Source of the DNA: a virus
Length of the DNA: 30,777 bases
Strand: one strand, 5' to 3'
IMG/VR virus record: IMGVR_UViG_3300046000_004551
Coordinates: 1-30,777 of that record
Positions 1 to 10,670 of this stretch are shown piece after piece. The notes beneath the pieces were generated by a model, which saw only the letters and a program-made list of their open reading frames with translations, was not told where the DNA came from and made no database searches. Positions within the stretch are counted from its first letter, which is position 1. Each line of letters begins with the position of its first letter. The translations under genes were made by a program, and so were the position numbers.

Positions 1-374
1 CTGCCGCCAGCCCAAACCTCTGTCACATCGCCATCAACGCCAATCGTCACACGACGAACGCGCCAAGCGGCTGCACTTTCGAGCGAACCAACCAGTGCCT
101 CTCCACGATAAAGGAGGCTGTTTGATATGAAGTCCACTCGTTTTGAATACATCATTTCATCTTCACTTATTCCTGGGGCACCGTCTGCGCCATCTGCGCC
201 GGCAGCACCAGTGGTTCCTGGTATGCCTTGAATCCCTTGATCGCCCTGAATGCCCTGTGGCCCTGGCGAACCTGAACCTATTCCTGGCGGGCCAGGTGGC
301 CCGCGTTCTGCTACCGCTATGACCTCAAATTCATCCTGAATAACGATGAAGAATGGATCTTCATTCAGAGCCAT
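1..374 (-). CDS. Collagen-like tail fibre/appendage protein, C-terminus cut by window edge
   Basis: The start codon is the ATG at 374-372. The reading frame is open to position 1, so the C-terminus is missing. Translation by hand gives a short N-terminal segment (MALNEDPFFIVIQDEFEVIA), then a run of about 14 Gly-X-Y triplets beginning GPPGPPGIG and ending GADGAPG, then a globular-looking segment (SEDEMMYSKRVDFIS, ending near VTEVWAGG). Collagen-like triplets are common trimerising stalks in phage tail fibres. The ATG overlaps the stop of the upstream gene as TAATG, so the two are probably translationally coupled. This is the third collagen-like protein in the left 4 kb. The C-terminal domain that would reveal its target lies outside the window. 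Confidence 0.8.
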   Translation of the reverse strand, partial: MALNEDPFFIVIQDEFEVIAVAERGPPGPPGIGSGSPGPQGIQGDQGIQGIPGTTGAAGADGADGAPGISEDEMMYSKRVDFISNSLLYRGEALVGSLESAAAWRVRRVTIGVDGDVTEVWAGG

Positions 375-2331: not shown

Positions 2332-3210
2332 TCAGCTCGGAAGTTTCTTTTTTCTATTGAGCAGATTGCGGACACGCTGTTTCATTCTGGTCACCCACGT
2401 TACCCCGACAGAATATGGCTGCTGCGGGAAACCATCAGCTAACAGACCGCCATCAATCTCATAGACACCACACTCCGTATAAAGCCCAAACAACGGCGTG
2501 TAGTAATCCAGACAGAACGGGAACAGTTCCTCTACCTTGTGACTGTTAAAAAGATAGTCACCTTGCTTCATACGGTGGATGAACTCAACCGGAACAACAC
2601 CGCCAGCCACAGGAACCTTGTTGGCAAAGTTCGTGTTGTCGTTGATGATCTGGATATATTTCCCTAACCGAATCTGTGCATACAGTGCCGGCTCAGGAGC
2701 GCCCCACTGCCCGTTTTCCATCATGAACATGTGGTCACCAATTACAGTGACGCCGTTCAGTATCCAGCCAAGGCGACCGTGCGGGATATTCCTGTGAAGG
2801 CCAATAACCTTGGTTGCACCATACGGCCCACCGCTGACCATATCGCCAATGCGGATCTCCTGAATCTGTTTGACTGACCCATCTGCCATAACCATGAGGG
2901 TGCCAAACAGGAAGCAACAATCACCACCGCCCGGATCAACAGGATCAGGAGGAGCGCCAGGCCCTTGTTCGCCAGGTGGCCCCGGAGGGCCAGGTGGCCC
3001 GGTCGGGCCGGTCGAACCAGTTGGGCCTGTCGAACCAGTTGGGCCGGTTGCCCCGAGTGCGCCACGGAAGTTTACAACCACATCTGAAGCGTTCTTGCCG
3101 TAGATCAGACCGTTGACGAAATCCAAGGCGATCTCGCCTTGAACCAATGAACCAGCGGTAGGAGCGCCACCACCAGCCATTTTTCGCTTGAATAAAATTG
3201 AAATTGCCAC
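2332..3210 (-). CDS. Collagen-like tail appendage protein with a Hedgehog/intein (Hint) domain
   Basis: 292 residues, GTG start at 3210-3208 with AAAGGG upstream. Residues 1-50 are an attachment-like module (LVQGEIALDF, LIYGKNASDVVV) shared with the next gene upstream. Residues 52-86 are Gly-X-Y triplets including GPPGPPGPP. From Cys98/Cys99 the sequence matches the start of a Hint domain: CFLFGTLMVMADGSVKQIQ, then IGDMV (block A), then TVIGDHMFMMENGQW around His160 (block B type). The C-terminal half (VYEIDGGLLADGF) fits the last Hint strands, but the terminal His-Asn and a following nucleophile needed for splicing are not seen. Hint domains perform an N-S acyl shift at the first Cys and can cleave. 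Self-processing of the fibre is possible; a degenerate structural Hint is the alternative. Confidence 0.75.
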   Translation of the reverse strand: MAISILFKRKMAGGGAPTAGSLVQGEIALDFVNGLIYGKNASDVVVNFRGALGATGPTGSTGPTGSTGPTGPPGPPGPPGEQGPGAPPDPVDPGGGDCCFLFGTLMVMADGSVKQIQEIRIGDMVSGGPYGATKVIGLHRNIPHGRLGWILNGVTVIGDHMFMMENGQWGAPEPALYAQIRLGKYIQIINDNTNFANKVPVAGGVVPVEFIHRMKQGDYLFNSHKVEELFPFCLDYYTPLFGLYTECGVYEIDGGLLADGFPQQPYSVGVTWVTRMKQRVRNLLNRKKKLPS

Positions 3211-3267: not shown

Positions 3268-3525
3268 TTATCCTGGTGCCCCTGTGGGGCCTGGTGGCCC
3301 AGGGGGGCCGGCAGGCCCTGTTGGGCCTAGCGGCCCGGTCGGGCCGAGTGCCCCGGTCGGGCCGGTTGCGCCTTGTGTGGTGAACTGAACAACGGCATTT
3401 GAAGCATTCTTGCCGTAGATTCGAGCATTTGCAAAATCCAGAGCAAGCTCACCCTGAACCAGATCACCGGCTACGGGTGCGCCGCCACCAGACATTTTTC
3501 GTTTAAGTAATAGTGTGATTGCCAT
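3268..3525 (-). CDS. Short collagen-like protein, paralogue of the Hint-domain protein N-terminus
   Basis: 85 residues. Residues 1-48 are closely similar to the start of the 2332-3210 product (MAI, LLKRKM, GGGAP, LVQGE, ALDF, IYGKNAS, VV, F in the same order). A run of about 11 Gly-X-Y triplets (GATGPTGALGP to GAPG) follows and the protein ends there, with no C-terminal domain. GGAGGT overlaps the stop of the upstream 2OG oxygenase and serves this start 8 nt later, so the pair is translationally coupled. It may be a minimal trimeric spike, a truncated copy of its neighbour, or a partner that trimerises with it. The clean stop and strong ribosome site favour a functional gene. Confidence 0.75.
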   Translation of the reverse strand: MAITLLLKRKMSGGGAPVAGDLVQGELALDFANARIYGKNASNAVVQFTTQGATGPTGALGPTGPLGPTGPAGPPGPPGPTGAPG

Positions 3526-3528
3526 TTC

Positions 3529-4110
3529 TTACCTCCAATATGGGCCTTCCATCCATGCGACAAGGGTGTGTCGAACACCCTTTGTTACAGGCGTTACGCG
3601 ATGCCGGAATAGACTTGGGAACACAAGCATTGCACCCTGCTTTTTGAATTCAATACCAGGCGGCGGATAAGCTTCCAGTTCAAAGTCACCGCCTTCATAA
3701 GATTCAGGATCAGAAAGCTGTAAAACTGCCGACAGCTTTCTATGAGTCGTCGTGCTGCGTTCCCGATTGTGGTCGCTGAAGAAAACGTCATGATGCCAAT
3801 CAAAGTGACCTAGCTCGGAGCTTTCATACGTTGTGAACTGTAGCGGCGGCAGATAGTTGATATCCAGGCCAAAAACATTTCGATTGGCTTTTCTGATCCT
3901 GTGTTCGATCAATTCATGAACGGGCTTAAATTCCTCATTTCTGCCACTTAACCAGCGAACCTGAGAGCGCCGAGCAGTCTGATTGATTTTTCCACCACCA
4001 GTTGTTCCTTCTTTTGGCGGTATTTGCAATGCCAAGTTGATAATCTCCGCGCAAGTTGCTTTATCAATGAGATTGCTCTCATTAGCCCACAGTTGCCATT
4101 CTGCTTTCAT
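3529..4110 (-). CDS. 2-oxoglutarate/Fe(II)-dependent oxygenase, prolyl-4-hydroxylase-like
   Basis: 193 residues. The double-stranded beta-helix signature is complete: an HxD metal motif (His106-x-Asp108, in FDWHHD), a distal His170 (FPSLFRHRV) and the 2-oxoglutarate-binding Arg180 (KGVRHTLVAW). YEGGDFELEAYPPPG and GAMLVFPS between them are typical of the P4H/PKHD hydroxylase group. Such enzymes use O2, Fe(II) and 2-oxoglutarate to hydroxylate Pro, Lys, Asp or small substrates. It overlaps the upstream fibre gene (ATGA) and sits 3 nt before a collagen-like gene, so hydroxylation of GPP-rich fibre stalks is an attractive inference. The substrate is unproven. Confidence in the family is high. 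Confidence 0.88.
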   Translation of the reverse strand: MKAEWQLWANESNLIDKATCAEIINLALQIPPKEGTTGGGKINQTARRSQVRWLSGRNEEFKPVHELIEHRIRKANRNVFGLDINYLPPLQFTTYESSELGHFDWHHDVFFSDHNRERSTTTHRKLSAVLQLSDPESYEGGDFELEAYPPPGIEFKKQGAMLVFPSLFRHRVTPVTKGVRHTLVAWMEGPYWR

Positions 4111-5200: not shown

Positions 5201-5230
5201 ATTATACTCCTGTAATATTCCAAGATGCAA
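5201..5230 (-). promoter_or_regulatory. Candidate promoter for the tail fibre gene
   Basis: On the minus strand a consensus TATAAT (5206-5201) directly abuts the palindrome at 5185-5200; TTGCAT (5230-5225) lies 18 nt further upstream. The -35 is weak. Here the palindrome covers the expected transcription start, a repressor-like position. Confidence 0.35.
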
Positions 5231-8200
5231 GGCCAGAAACGCGGGCGCCTGTGGCTCTGTCCCAAAGGTAAAGCTCGACCTGATTCGGGTTTGCGCTGTT
5301 GTAATCATAGGTCGCAATGACCGGTGTCGTGCCTTCTGGCGTTACGGTGATACTTCTTACATCAACAAAGGTAATGGCAAAGGTAACAAGGGTTCCTGTT
5401 GCGTCACCCGCAACGCAGGATTTTGAACCCGAATCACTGATTAGCTTCACATCCAGCTTGACCGTCAATTGCAGTTCTTTAACTAGCTGATTGCCACCCG
5501 TGCTTGCAAAGTCCAGCGTCACCTTGACGTAGCGGAAATTCAATGCAAAGACACTGGAAACATTTGCGTAATTTGTCCAACTGTCGCCTATATTTAGCTT
5601 AATGCTGATCGTGGATCTCACATTCACTGCACCAAGGAGATTTAACCTGTTGAAGATCAGGCTGATCTTGGTAGATGGGATTGTTACGCCATAGTCGATC
5701 ACTTCGACATACTGACCCTTGCTTTGGGTAGGTGCCATGCTGTTCGTAAAGCCAGCATCGATCAGCGATTGTGGCGTAATGAAGGTGATTGCTGAAGCTA
5801 CTGACTTCACATAGCCTGGGATATCACCAGCCGCATTTACTGGAACAAGCTGACCACCCCATACATGGATGCCGTTGGAAATATTGCCCAAGTAGGATAA
5901 GTTGCCAGAGCCGTCACGAACCCTGATGCCGACATATCCCAAAACGGTCGCCGCAGCGCACTTACCCGAAACAGCGGCCCTGAACCAGCCGTTACCAAGA
6001 TCCGTAAGCTCTGACTTCAATGCGGTGCCCGTGCCAATTACAGTCGCCGCACTAATTGTCTTGGCTGTTAAATCAAAGGTTGCATACGCACCATGCGTCC
6101 AGCCACCTTCCATAAATACAATGTCACCCTTTGTGCGCTCTGCGGCATAGAAGAAGCAGGCAGCGGCATAAGGTGCATTGGCTACAATCGTGACTGCATC
6201 TGAATTATGCGTATGTTGTGAGGTAACGGCAGTTTCAACGAGTTTTGTGGCAACGCTCGTCCCTGAAGGATCGGCACGACTGTTCACAACGGCGGTCAGG
6301 GCAGCTACGTTCCAGTCAGCACCGGCCATTAGTTCGCTGCCAAGAAGGATGTTTCCATTCTTGGTAAAGTGTTCCTCGAAAGTCTGGTTTGGATCAACCG
6401 CACCATACAGTCCAAACACTTCTGTCAGGTCGTTTCGGCCATCAAGCGTTGTTTGAGTCCATGTAGGCGCACCAACCAAAGTCAGGTGATTGGTATTTTC
6501 AGTGTCGTCATTGACGGTAATGCCCGTGCTTTCACTGAAGTTCCATGCACCCACAATTGATGTTTCATCCCGATAGATGCCGCGATAATGCTCAAGGATT
6601 TCGGTGTCGGTAATGCGACGCTTGTAGACTCGGCACGGGCCTAGCTGCCCTTTCATCGTATAAGTTGGTGATCCAGCTAGACGCCCAACAAAGAACGCAC
6701 CAGCGCCTTGATCCATCGCGCCTGCCGCCACCGTGGTCGCTTGGTTCACGCCATCAAAAGCAATCTGAACGCCGTTTGCTGCATCCCAACGGCCAATAAT
6801 GTGCATCCATGTGTTGTATCGTCCCGCAGGCGGTGCATATGCAGCCTGTTTTGTGCTTCCGGCAGTCTTTGCTACACAAATAATTTGCGTTCCCGTGCCA
6901 TAGATTTCAAAGCAGGTATTGGTCACGCCACCGACAGATTTGTCCATGAAACCGGTGGTGGCGTCGCCAGCAAAGTCATTCTTGATCCAGCACTCGAACG
7001 TGATGCCGGTAATGCCGCTGTCCAGATCAGTGATAGACGCAACGCTGCCATACTTGGTGTCGGCGTCAATGTTCAGGGCATACTTGTTTGGAGAATGTCT
7101 TGTGACTTTGGATTGTGTGGTGCTGTCAAATTCAGAAGCCTGTTGATCGAACAAAACATAGTCAGGCGGTTGTGACACTTCGGCGGCGGTTGAACTCTCG
7201 GTTCCAAAATTGCCAGCAGCATCAACCGGTCTAACCCAATAGATATAGGTTCCTGATTCTGTTTCAAAGATAGCTGAGAAACGCCCGCCTACCGTTCCGA
7301 TCATCGATGCGGTAGCAAAGACGGTGCCTTTGTAAACTTCGTAGTGCTTGATCGGTAGTGAACCAACGGATTCAGTCCAGCGCAGCAGAACGTTGTTGTC
7401 GATGACCTGTGAGGTAATAACCGGTGCGTTCGGTGAGGTAATGGTTAATGAGTCGTTGGCTGTCTTTGCCCCCACTGTTCCGTTCTGGTTGTAGGCGGCA
7501 ACCCAAAATATACGGAGTCCAGACCAGGCGGCAATACCCCTGAGCGTTGTTCCCTTTACTCGACCAAGACTAACGCCTGCATCAAAGCTCGCTCCATGTC
7601 TGACTTCATATTCTTCGATAGGCAGAACTGATGCGGCGGCTGTCCAGGTCAGAACAAAGTCAACGCTATCCAGAACGGCATCAACCATCGATGGCGCGGC
7701 TGGTATTGTCACGTTGTAAGGAACAGATGTGATCGCACCGAGATTGCCGGCTGTATCGCGTGAAGCAAGCCAGAATGAGCGCGAACCTGTCCAGTCAATC
7801 GGAATGCGATAGCTCAGGCTGGAAGTCTTGATGACGCTAACAGAAGCTCCGTCAGTGAAGCTGGTGCCATGACGAATTTCATATTCCGCAACCGGCAAAG
7901 AACCTACAACTGGCGGAGGCTTTGACCAAATAACTTCCAGCTTGAGGGCGACAGGTAGTGCCGAAGTTAGTATCGGCGCAGTGTGTGCGATGACCGTGAA
8001 TGGGACACTGGCCTCTGCACCTAAATTATTGGCAACATCATAAGCTGCGACCGTAAAGGTTCTCAGCCCCACCCAATCCACTTTCACTGAAACACGGTCG
8101 CCCTTAACCCGTTCAACAAGGGTCGTGCCATACTTAACGATGTAATCTTTGATATCTAGGCTTGATGTAGGAATAAGCCATGAGATTGTCAGATTTTCGG

Positions 8201-10670
8201 TTTCAACTCCATTGACGAGATTGGTTGCAATAACGCCCGTAGGTGCCGCAGGTATAGTTACGCCGACGACCTGATTGGTTGCCGGGCCTTCATTGTTTGC
8301 CAGATCAACCGGCGCAACAGAAAACGTTTCGTTACCACCCCATGTCACGATATCGGAGAACGTCGTGCTGTCATGGTTGTATAAGAACGTGCCATTCTTT
8401 CTGATGACATAGTGCTTAGTGGGATAGCTACCGACTACAGCGCCCCAAGTAAGTGTGAAATTGGAACCCGCCACGATAGGGGTTGCAATTGTCACCACCC
8501 CAGGAGCGGCCACAACAACTGATAGCGGCGCTGCGTTGAGACTTTCATTACCAGAGGTATCAACCGCCTTGATCTTGTAGGCGTAAGTGCCTGGTGTCGT
8601 GAATGGTCGTAGCGCACGATTGTCGTTGCCCGTATAAACCACGGTTCCAGTGGCCCAATCTATACCGATCTTGACGATGTAGTTGTTGAAGTCCACATCG
8701 GTAACGTGGTTCCATGTCAGCGATGTGCCGGTTGCGATGTGACCATAAGCAAATCCCGTTACGTCCTGGGGAGGCGCTGTCTTACCGACGACGGTATGTG
8801 TGATTGTTGGTGCCGAGGTTTCAGGTGCGCTGGCCCCTACCATGTCGGTTGCAACGACCTTGAAAATCAGTTCATCGCCGGTATCCGCCTCAACCATAGC
8901 GCGGTCAAAATGAGCGGTTACAAACTCGAATGCTCCGCCATTGCGCGAAACGTAAACCCTGGAATTTTTGTAGCTACTTTGAGTTGATGTGAAATAAACA
9001 GTTACTTCGGAACGAATGTTGCCAGTAAGAACAACCAGAATTTCTTTAACATCATTGATCGTGGCATGGGTAACAGTTGAATCAAGGTTACTAAAATTAA
9101 CAACTGGCGCAGGAATCGAATTCAGATCGTAAACGGAGTCGTTGTATTCAATCGCAGTAATGTCTCTGCGGTATTCATGGCTTCCGCTAATCGTTTTGAT
9201 ACGGAATGGTTTCTTGACCTTATCGACCGGGCCATACATCCAGTTTGAGAACTGAGCGGGTGCAGCAGAGAACGGCGTTATGACAGATATCTCGGTCACT
9301 TCTATTGGAGAAACTGTCGTATTGAGAACATCGCGTTCTTCAATAACGTCGGTATCCCAAAGTGTGTAAGCCTGACCATTTGATAGGCCAACCGAATCCT
9401 CAAGAATCACACCGTAGTTTGCACCGGCTGTGAACACGGACAGCACACGCTTGTCCAGACCATTAGCTTTCAGGCGCTTGATGTTCGAGGAACCGTCATA
9501 GCCGGCCAAGATGATTGAGTCACCGATGACTGAGGTGATGCTGCCAGAGAAACGCTGAATGGCATCAAAGAACGCAAGAGCCTTGTAAGAGACACCTGGC
9601 GACATTGGAACAGGTCTATCAAGGTTCAGGGCTGAAGCTGAGTCAAGGGACTCGATACGGCCACCGTAACCCCATTGAGGCATGTCATGCTGCACATAGA
9701 TAACGCTACCTACCGTGGCTGCAATCGCCTCAATAGGCGCACCAAACTCAACTGTCTGTAGAACATAACGGTTTAGGTTGAGTTGGAATACCCCTTCTTT
9801 GTGCGCTTGCTCCTTGTTATCTACCCCTACCAAAGTGATGTTTGCGCTACGTGAAGGCGATCCATTTGTGAGAGCAATAGGATCATAGACCTTGATACTG
9901 TTCTTCTTGTAGTTGTCCATCTTGTCGAAGTAGGAAACCTCGATTTCATTGGCACGTTCTGTAACCGGCAACCAGCTTTGCTTGAAGGTTCCTTTAATGA
10001 TGTTGCCGACCGAGAACATTTGGACTGCAACTTCGGCTTTCTCGATGACTACGCTATAACGGGTGCCCATGTTGACGATCTGAGCATGGCCGGCGCGGAA
10101 TACATACTGCATGGCATCCCAAAGATTCGATTGGGACTCAATAATGCCGTTGAATGTAAGCCCTTCACTGTCGCAATGAGCGGCCCATTCCTTCCATTTA
10201 TCCATATCGATACGGGTGTCTAACATTCCGCCCCCGTATCTTGAATGCGTCATCATGTCCAGCGTAATCCAGGCAGGATTTGCACTGGCTTGATATCGCC
10301 ATACCAGACCATCCCAAACACGGATATAGCGACCGTGGCTTAGGTATGTGACTTTTGGTGGCCCATTTAGTTGGTCTGTCAGTTGGATCTTCAGACCGAG
10401 AAGCGCAGTGTGCTTGTAGGATACGTCGTCAGTGATAATCTCATTTATATCAGACACATATACTGTGTCCGAAACATAATCACCAGGATCATCAGCCAGC
10501 ACCCGCTTGATACGAATCTCGTAGACCGCTTCTTCCAGCACCGGGGACATGAAGGATTTACGAACAGCCGCACGCGAACGATCCGACATTTGAACAGTCG
10601 GGCCGTAGATCGGAACTTGAACGTCACGACATTCGGTGTAGCTGGTATAGGTTTGCGGTTGACCGGCCAT
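5202..10670 (-). CDS. J: Tail tip / host-specificity protein, lambda gpJ-like
   Basis: 1822 residues. About residues 1-520 match the gpJ core (YEIRIKRVLADDPGDYVSD, then SYKHTALLGLKIQL, then NPAWITLDMMTHSRYGGG). Residues about 520-1170 hold several fibronectin type III-like modules (units ending SVPFTV, SLTI and similar, with APxxxxA linkers). Residues about 1168-1377 are a LamG/concanavalin-like domain (FECWIKNDF, WMHIIGRWDA, YTMKGQLGPCRVYKR). A jelly-roll CBM-like domain spans about 1433-1593, and a C-terminal beta-rich part follows. The protein sits at the tail tip and contacts the host receptor. It lacks the usual gpJ N-terminus, which is encoded in the upstream gene; the two genes overlap as TAATG. 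Confidence 0.9.
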   Translation of the reverse strand: MAGQPQTYTSYTECRDVQVPIYGPTVQMSDRSRAAVRKSFMSPVLEEAVYEIRIKRVLADDPGDYVSDTVYVSDINEIITDDVSYKHTALLGLKIQLTDQLNGPPKVTYLSHGRYIRVWDGLVWRYQASANPAWITLDMMTHSRYGGGMLDTRIDMDKWKEWAAHCDSEGLTFNGIIESQSNLWDAMQYVFRAGHAQIVNMGTRYSVVIEKAEVAVQMFSVGNIIKGTFKQSWLPVTERANEIEVSYFDKMDNYKKNSIKVYDPIALTNGSPSRSANITLVGVDNKEQAHKEGVFQLNLNRYVLQTVEFGAPIEAIAATVGSVIYVQHDMPQWGYGGRIESLDSASALNLDRPVPMSPGVSYKALAFFDAIQRFSGSITSVIGDSIILAGYDGSSNIKRLKANGLDKRVLSVFTAGANYGVILEDSVGLSNGQAYTLWDTDVIEERDVLNTTVSPIEVTEISVITPFSAAPAQFSNWMYGPVDKVKKPFRIKTISGSHEYRRDITAIEYNDSVYDLNSIPAPVVNFSNLDSTVTHATINDVKEILVVLTGNIRSEVTVYFTSTQSSYKNSRVYVSRNGGAFEFVTAHFDRAMVEADTGDELIFKVVATDMVGASAPETSAPTITHTVVGKTAPPQDVTGFAYGHIATGTSLTWNHVTDVDFNNYIVKIGIDWATGTVVYTGNDNRALRPFTTPGTYAYKIKAVDTSGNESLNAAPLSVVVAAPGVVTIATPIVAGSNFTLTWGAVVGSYPTKHYVIRKNGTFLYNHDSTTFSDIVTWGGNETFSVAPVDLANNEGPATNQVVGVTIPAAPTGVIATNLVNGVETENLTISWLIPTSSLDIKDYIVKYGTTLVERVKGDRVSVKVDWVGLRTFTVAAYDVANNLGAEASVPFTVIAHTAPILTSALPVALKLEVIWSKPPPVVGSLPVAEYEIRHGTSFTDGASVSVIKTSSLSYRIPIDWTGSRSFWLASRDTAGNLGAITSVPYNVTIPAAPSMVDAVLDSVDFVLTWTAAASVLPIEEYEVRHGASFDAGVSLGRVKGTTLRGIAAWSGLRIFWVAAYNQNGTVGAKTANDSLTITSPNAPVITSQVIDNNVLLRWTESVGSLPIKHYEVYKGTVFATASMIGTVGGRFSAIFETESGTYIYWVRPVDAAGNFGTESSTAAEVSQPPDYVLFDQQASEFDSTTQSKVTRHSPNKYALNIDADTKYGSVASITDLDSGITGITFECWIKNDFAGDATTGFMDKSVGGVTNTCFEIYGTGTQIICVAKTAGSTKQAAYAPPAGRYNTWMHIIGRWDAANGVQIAFDGVNQATTVAAGAMDQGAGAFFVGRLAGSPTYTMKGQLGPCRVYKRRITDTEILEHYRGIYRDETSIVGAWNFSESTGITVNDDTENTNHLTLVGAPTWTQTTLDGRNDLTEVFGLYGAVDPNQTFEEHFTKNGNILLGSELMAGADWNVAALTAVVNSRADPSGTSVATKLVETAVTSQHTHNSDAVTIVANAPYAAACFFYAAERTKGDIVFMEGGWTHGAYATFDLTAKTISAATVIGTGTALKSELTDLGNGWFRAAVSGKCAAATVLGYVGIRVRDGSGNLSYLGNISNGIHVWGGQLVPVNAAGDIPGYVKSVASAITFITPQSLIDAGFTNSMAPTQSKGQYVEVIDYGVTIPSTKISLIFNRLNLLGAVNVRSTISIKLNIGDSWTNYANVSSVFALNFRYVKVTLDFASTGGNQLVKELQLTVKLDVKLISDSGSKSCVAGDATGTLVTFAITFVDVRSITVTPEGTTPVIATYDYNSANPNQVELYLWDRATGARVSGLASWNITGV
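9517..9532. repeat. Palindromic site, intragenic copy in the J-like gene
   Basis: GAGTCA CCGA TGACTG; the inner AGTCA-N4-TGACT is perfect. It lies within coding sequence (SVIGDS), so it could be chance, but perfect 10-base matches should be rare in a window of this size. Confidence 0.35.

Follow-up and report, generated by a model that had tools for sequence, protein, structure and literature searches.

A gene in the tail module of an uncultured siphophage encodes a collagen-like stalk that runs into a predicted Hint domain, and this Hint domain is genuine, beyond chance, with fold and layout well supported by profile matches and a structural model. Most likely it serves as a C-terminal module that either cuts itself off the stalk or caps it, and we give roughly even chances to the reading in which the gene combines a tail-fibre stalk with a C-terminal Hint autoprocessing module, reduced to residues of the Hedgehog type. 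The combination of a collagen stalk with a reduced Hint is new, and the fibre-Hint layout as such is already found in cultured phages, where it is barely described.

The gene lies in a 30,777-nt window (the whole stretch of DNA that was analysed, an IMG/VR virus record), which by its sequence comes from a siphophage related to Nickievirus and carries the structural module. Its TerL is 61.7% identical to that of Pseudomonas phage hairong, and its gene order matches that of Pseudomonas phage nickie, placing the collagen-Hint gene in the tail module (Table 1). Behind the J-like gene follow, in order, a fibre gene, a 2OG-Fe(II) oxygenase gene, an 85-aa collagen-like gene and the collagen-Hint gene, and past the latter a cupin-like gene, an LtfC/BppU-like gene and a third collagen-like gene. 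A motif search of the J-gene relatives of this phage (L137-L161; L numbers denote fetched loci) found neither collagen nor Hint, so the collagen-Hint module looks accessory. On the strand opposite to the collagen-Hint gene, a 67-aa ORF with two 27-codon repeats (2059-2262, +) precedes a terminator-like hairpin (2283-2308).

Table 1. Features of the collagen-Hint gene and its neighbourhood, in window coordinates
Feature	Position	Strand	Basis
Third collagen-like gene, truncated at the contig end; preceded by the cupin-like and LtfC/BppU_N-like genes	3-374	-	
Collagen-Hint gene (292 aa), from GTG at 3210 to stop at 2332	2332..3210	-	ORF, codon use
Tail-fibre N-terminal domain, aa 1-48	3067..3210	-	tblastn to T4-like gp37 fibres, 6x3m
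Gly-X-Y collagen-like stalk, aa 49-86	2953..3066	-	Pfam Collagen 3.8e-5
Pro/Gly-rich linker, aa 87-98, ending DPGGGDC	2917..2952	-	sequence
Cys98-Cys99, predicted acyl-shift junction; Cys99 is Hint Cys1	2914..2919	-	VIA alignment
Hint domain, about aa 99-260	2431..2916	-	profiles, alignment, predicted structure
Block B, Ile157 to His160	2731..2742	-	cluster counts
Asp259-Gly260 in place of intein His-Asn; block G lost	2431..2436	-	structural alignment
Basic C-terminal tail, aa 261-292, low-confidence helix	2335..2430	-	predicted structure
Paralogue, 85 aa, N-terminal domain and collagen, no Hint	3268..3525	-	70% identity, 64 aa, 2e-27
PKHD-type 2OG-Fe(II) oxygenase	3529..4110	-	PF13640 9.6e-14; PiuC 4e-9
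J-like gene	10670..5202	-	

Domain order and predicted fold

The collagen-Hint frame has an AAAGGG ribosome-binding-like site just before its GTG, and its codon use is that of phage late genes (CAI 0.73, against 0.56 and 0.63 when the frame is shifted). The first 48 residues match N-terminal parts of T4-like gp37 distal fibres (tblastn, best 2e-3), and phage hyaluronidase 6x3m matches aa 3-81, collagen part included (1.2e-5); the Gly-X-Y run thus stands behind a fibre attachment domain within a tail module, as in phage collagen-like tail fibres. The Pro/Gly linker, comparable to the Gly-rich linkers that precede many phage C-terminal Hints, runs into CFLFGTLMVMADGS. All the pieces named in the preliminary description are present, namely the Gly-X-Y run, Cys98-Cys99, FLFGTLMVMADGS, IGDMV and, with His160, TVIGDH.

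By profile, the C-terminal part matches Hom_end_hint (PF05203) with an E value of 2e-5, at 25.1 bits against a curated cut-off of 32.1 and over the N-terminal 43 positions only, and Vint (PF14623) weakly (0.017; 15.4 bits, under the curated cut-off of 27, which the Hint of the related tail fibre L163 passes at 28.1 bits). PI-SceI was matched by sequence in the PDB (7e-4), and both this match and that to Hom_end_hint begin at aa 96-99. An AlphaFold2 model, built on 39 aligned Hint domains (38 from fetched loci plus that of the window), has a mean pLDDT of 79, exceeding 90 across most of the N-terminal half. Its best structural match is BIL2 of Tetrahymena BUBL1 (Foldseek 2e-7, VIA Z 18.7), alongside a C. 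thermocellum BIL (Z 16.9), inteins (Z 13-17) and Hedgehog 1at0 (Z 15.0). The predicted structure is a Hint beta-fold with pseudo-two-fold symmetry, matching inteins, BIL domains and Hedgehog at Z 13-19 over about 116-138 residues. In the VIA alignments Cys99 (model residue 7) superposes on the catalytic Cys1 of inteins and on Cys258 of Hedgehog, while Gly260 (model residue 168) aligns with the final residue of several inteins. The earlier proposal that a Hint domain ends the stalk is borne out by the Hom_end_hint match and this fold, with Cys99 at the position of the active cysteine. A self-cleaving fibre chaperone of the Peptidase_S74 type was also considered; no S74 profile matched, and the C-terminal domain is predicted to fold as a Hint.

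Catalytic residues kept and lost

Block A is kept, with Cys99 at position 1, and block B reads V-I-G-D-H, keeping His160 but placing Ile157 where Thr or Ser is usual. The block-B His is present in 110 of 111 viral and 62 of 63 cellular clusters, a conservation independent of the pattern by which the relatives were selected; conservation of Cys1 is not independent evidence, because the Cys belonged to that pattern. Three residues before the His, 109 of the 111 viral clusters have Thr, Ser or Ala, and none has Ile. As had been claimed, there is no His-Asn splicing end, its place being taken by Asp259-Gly260-Phe261, so that Asn cyclisation is impossible. With Cys1 and the block-B His kept and block G lost, only the first step of the Hedgehog type, the N-S acyl shift, is possible, and Hedgehog itself performs that shift only (PMC7664689). 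Judged from these residues, the protein perhaps forms a thioester at 98/99 by an N-S acyl shift slowed by Ile157, and the change from Thr to Ile could lower the rate of the step, restrict it to certain conditions or mean that activity is gone. The comparison with Hedgehog made at the outset is thus apt as regards Cys1, the block-B His and the missing block G, and Ile157, which went unmentioned there, cautions against pressing it further.

The collagen-Hint protein shares with the Hedgehog autoprocessing domain (1at0) the fold, Cys1, the block-B His and the absence of block G, but has Ile for Thr, a collagen stalk rather than a signalling domain, and, with just 32 residues after the Hint, no sterol-recognition region as in the Hog domain. 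Assignment as an intein was rejected, since the C-terminal Asn and the +1 nucleophile are absent. Splicing of two exteins is unlikely, only a 32-aa tail following the Hint and the Asn being missing. Assignment as a BIL domain was likewise rejected, the best structural match notwithstanding: BILs retain a C-terminal His-Asn, whereas the collagen-Hint protein has Asp-Gly.

These likenesses bear on a reading we hold improbable, in which the thioester is handed to an amine or alcohol of another virion protein or of the cell surface, leaving the stalk covalently attached. BIL2, the closest solved fold, forms isopeptide bonds to lysine (PMC8616854), Hedgehog autoprocessing attaches cholesterol (PMC7664689), and a C-terminal position on tail-tip proteins would fit; yet no acceptor is visible within the window, the C-terminal Asn of BIL2 is missing, and nothing after the Hint resembles the sterol-recognition region.

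Hint domains at the ends of other phage proteins

Relatives were gathered by pattern scans of IMG/VR and a single one of genome contigs. The Hint domains that stand at or close to the C-terminus of phage proteins form a large and varied class, whose carriers include a tail fibre (L163; phrog_8469, 9.6e-29), a virion structural protein (L116), a DUF4815 protein (L046) and lambda gpI-like tail assembly proteins with C-terminal Hints (L165:2143-3447, 5e-38; L198:11-1192, 5e-50). Many lack block G and end like I-x-I-x-G-x-x-F-T/S-D-Y/F. In the tree, the window Hint pairs with that of L163 (IMGVR_UViG_3300047558_000261; support 0.91), which comes after NCNCNCACDCCC and terminates in VDGF, the DGF end being common to the clade of L163, JWF and 2-1. 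Like the collagen-Hint protein, L163 is a tail fibre with a C-terminal Hint, a Cys-rich junction and DGF for HN; it differs in having no collagen, in its (Asn-Cys)n linker and in keeping the block-B Thr.

Cultured Achromobacter phages JWF and 2-1 (WKV22028) also carry tail-fibre-Hint fusions, and JWF gp28, a T4 gp36-like fibre, is already annotated as a 'Hom_end-associated Hint family protein'. Both fibre genes lie two genes past the J/hub gene, and their proteins share with the window's the C-terminal Hint and DGF end, but have the Hint joined through an (Asn-Cys)n linker to a T4 gp36-like fibre, not collagen, and keep the block-B Ser. Providencia phage PSTNGR1 offers a shorter case of the layout. 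An (Asn-Cys)n linker, e.g. NCNCDCNCSC, stands directly before Hint Cys1 in the fibres L163, L092, L323, L324 and L327. Other arrangements include tandem Hint pairs (L014, L025, L094, L095, L166, L169 and others), the first with an HN end and the second without block G, and a 2466-aa phage protein (L007:3-7400) with four head-to-tail Hints, each HNK end abutting the next CF, the array standing just before a DPLAQTF motif.

In JWF, 2-1 and L324 the Hint is under purifying selection (dN/dS about 0.3, 0.1 and 0.3 in three pairs), with values similar to or lower than those of the fibre part. Such selection in the JWF clade weighs against the Hint being a decaying, functionless intein or Hint remnant fused to the stalk by accident, as do the open frame with phage-like codon use, the retained core motifs and the recurrence of equally reduced Hints across many phages. 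We regard this reading as very improbable, its divergent residues and single sighting in about 350 loci speaking for it.

The layout had been thought uncharacterised, which stands only in part: C-terminal Hints are frequent on tail proteins of uncultured phages and JWF gp28 is annotated, but no second gene with collagen and Hint was found in the roughly 350 loci, leaving the window's as the sole such pairing. Nor was a close homologue of the gene found: IMG/VR pattern scans with the window Hint alone and with its N-terminal domain gave no confirmed relative, and tblastn of phage records gave five weak matches, mostly to helicase/ATPase-type genes, the best (4e-5) covering block A only. A literature search returned no paper on Hint domains ending phage tail proteins; the phage literature found concerns inteins in terminase or ribonucleotide reductase genes.

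The junction and a possible maturation of the stalk

Junctions were counted on sequences clustered at 70% identity. Of 47 clusters of viral C-terminal Hints, 30 have Gly directly before Cys1, compared with 1 of 19 cellular C-terminal clusters (P 9e-6) and 15 of 63 viral Hints with more sequence after them (P 3e-5); this Gly lay outside the search pattern, and the P values ignore the phylogenetic relatedness of the clusters. The enrichment argues for selection on the putative scissile bond in phage C-terminal Hints. The -1 residue of Hedgehog is likewise Gly, and a Gly there suits thioester chemistry and so counts toward autoprocessing in phage C-terminal Hints. In the collagen-Hint protein itself, positions -5 to -1 read GGGDC.

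Were the chemistry lost, the domain could remain on the fibre as a trimer nucleator, a cap or a receptor-binding tip. C-terminal fibre domains are frequently folding or adhesion modules, and Ile157, the loss of block G, the added basic tail and the well-preserved core of the fold all suit such a role. A purely structural domain, however, needs neither Cys99 nor His160, and a Gly-Cys junction appears to be selected throughout the phage family; we consider this explanation unlikely, if the most serious of the alternatives.

Autoprocessing is preferred because the fold and Cys1 register fit and block A and His160 are invariant among relatives, because the carriers are tail proteins, because purifying selection acts on the Hint of JWF, 2-1 and L324, because Gly before Cys1 is enriched in phage C-terminal Hints, and because a 70%-identical Hint-less paralogue has the expected product architecture. 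Against it stand Ile157, in place of the Thr or Ser that aids the acyl shift, and the Cys rather than Gly at -1. The Hint would turn the Cys98-Cys99 peptide bond into a thioester by N-S acyl shift, and hydrolysis, or a small or protein nucleophile, would then separate a stalk of about 98 aa from a Hint part of about 194 aa. Release would probably come after chain association and triple-helix formation, the Hint potentially serving as a disposable C-terminal propeptide. More broadly, it is conceivable, though we rate it below an even chance, that in many uncultured phages the tail-tip proteins, the collagen stalk among them, mature through a built-in Hedgehog-like reaction that takes place at a Gly-Cys or Cys-Cys junction and trims or chemically caps the end of the fibre once it has trimerised. 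Phages would thereby have an equivalent of the collagen C-propeptide that requires no protease.

If the Hint is active, phage virion assembly would finish or attach tail fibres by protein-splicing chemistry, and self-removing, thiol-inducible collagen stalks would become usable tools; cultured JWF and 2-1 make the fibre-Hint question testable now. Even an inert Hint would leave a large, uncharacterised class of tail-tip proteins with C-terminal Hints that merits annotation.

The mature stalk would look like the neighbouring 85-aa paralogue, whose identity to the collagen-Hint protein covers the head together with the first triplets of the collagen; the paralogue terminates where its own collagen ends, and it resembles the product expected once the Hint is released. 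A search of the fetched loci for Hint-less homologues of Hint-bearing fibres found such a tail-fibre pair only in the window, everything else it returned being terminase inteins of the ordinary kind or, in a few cases, partial matches. Directly upstream of the two collagen-like genes lies that for the PKHD-type oxygenase, which may hydroxylate the neighbouring collagens.
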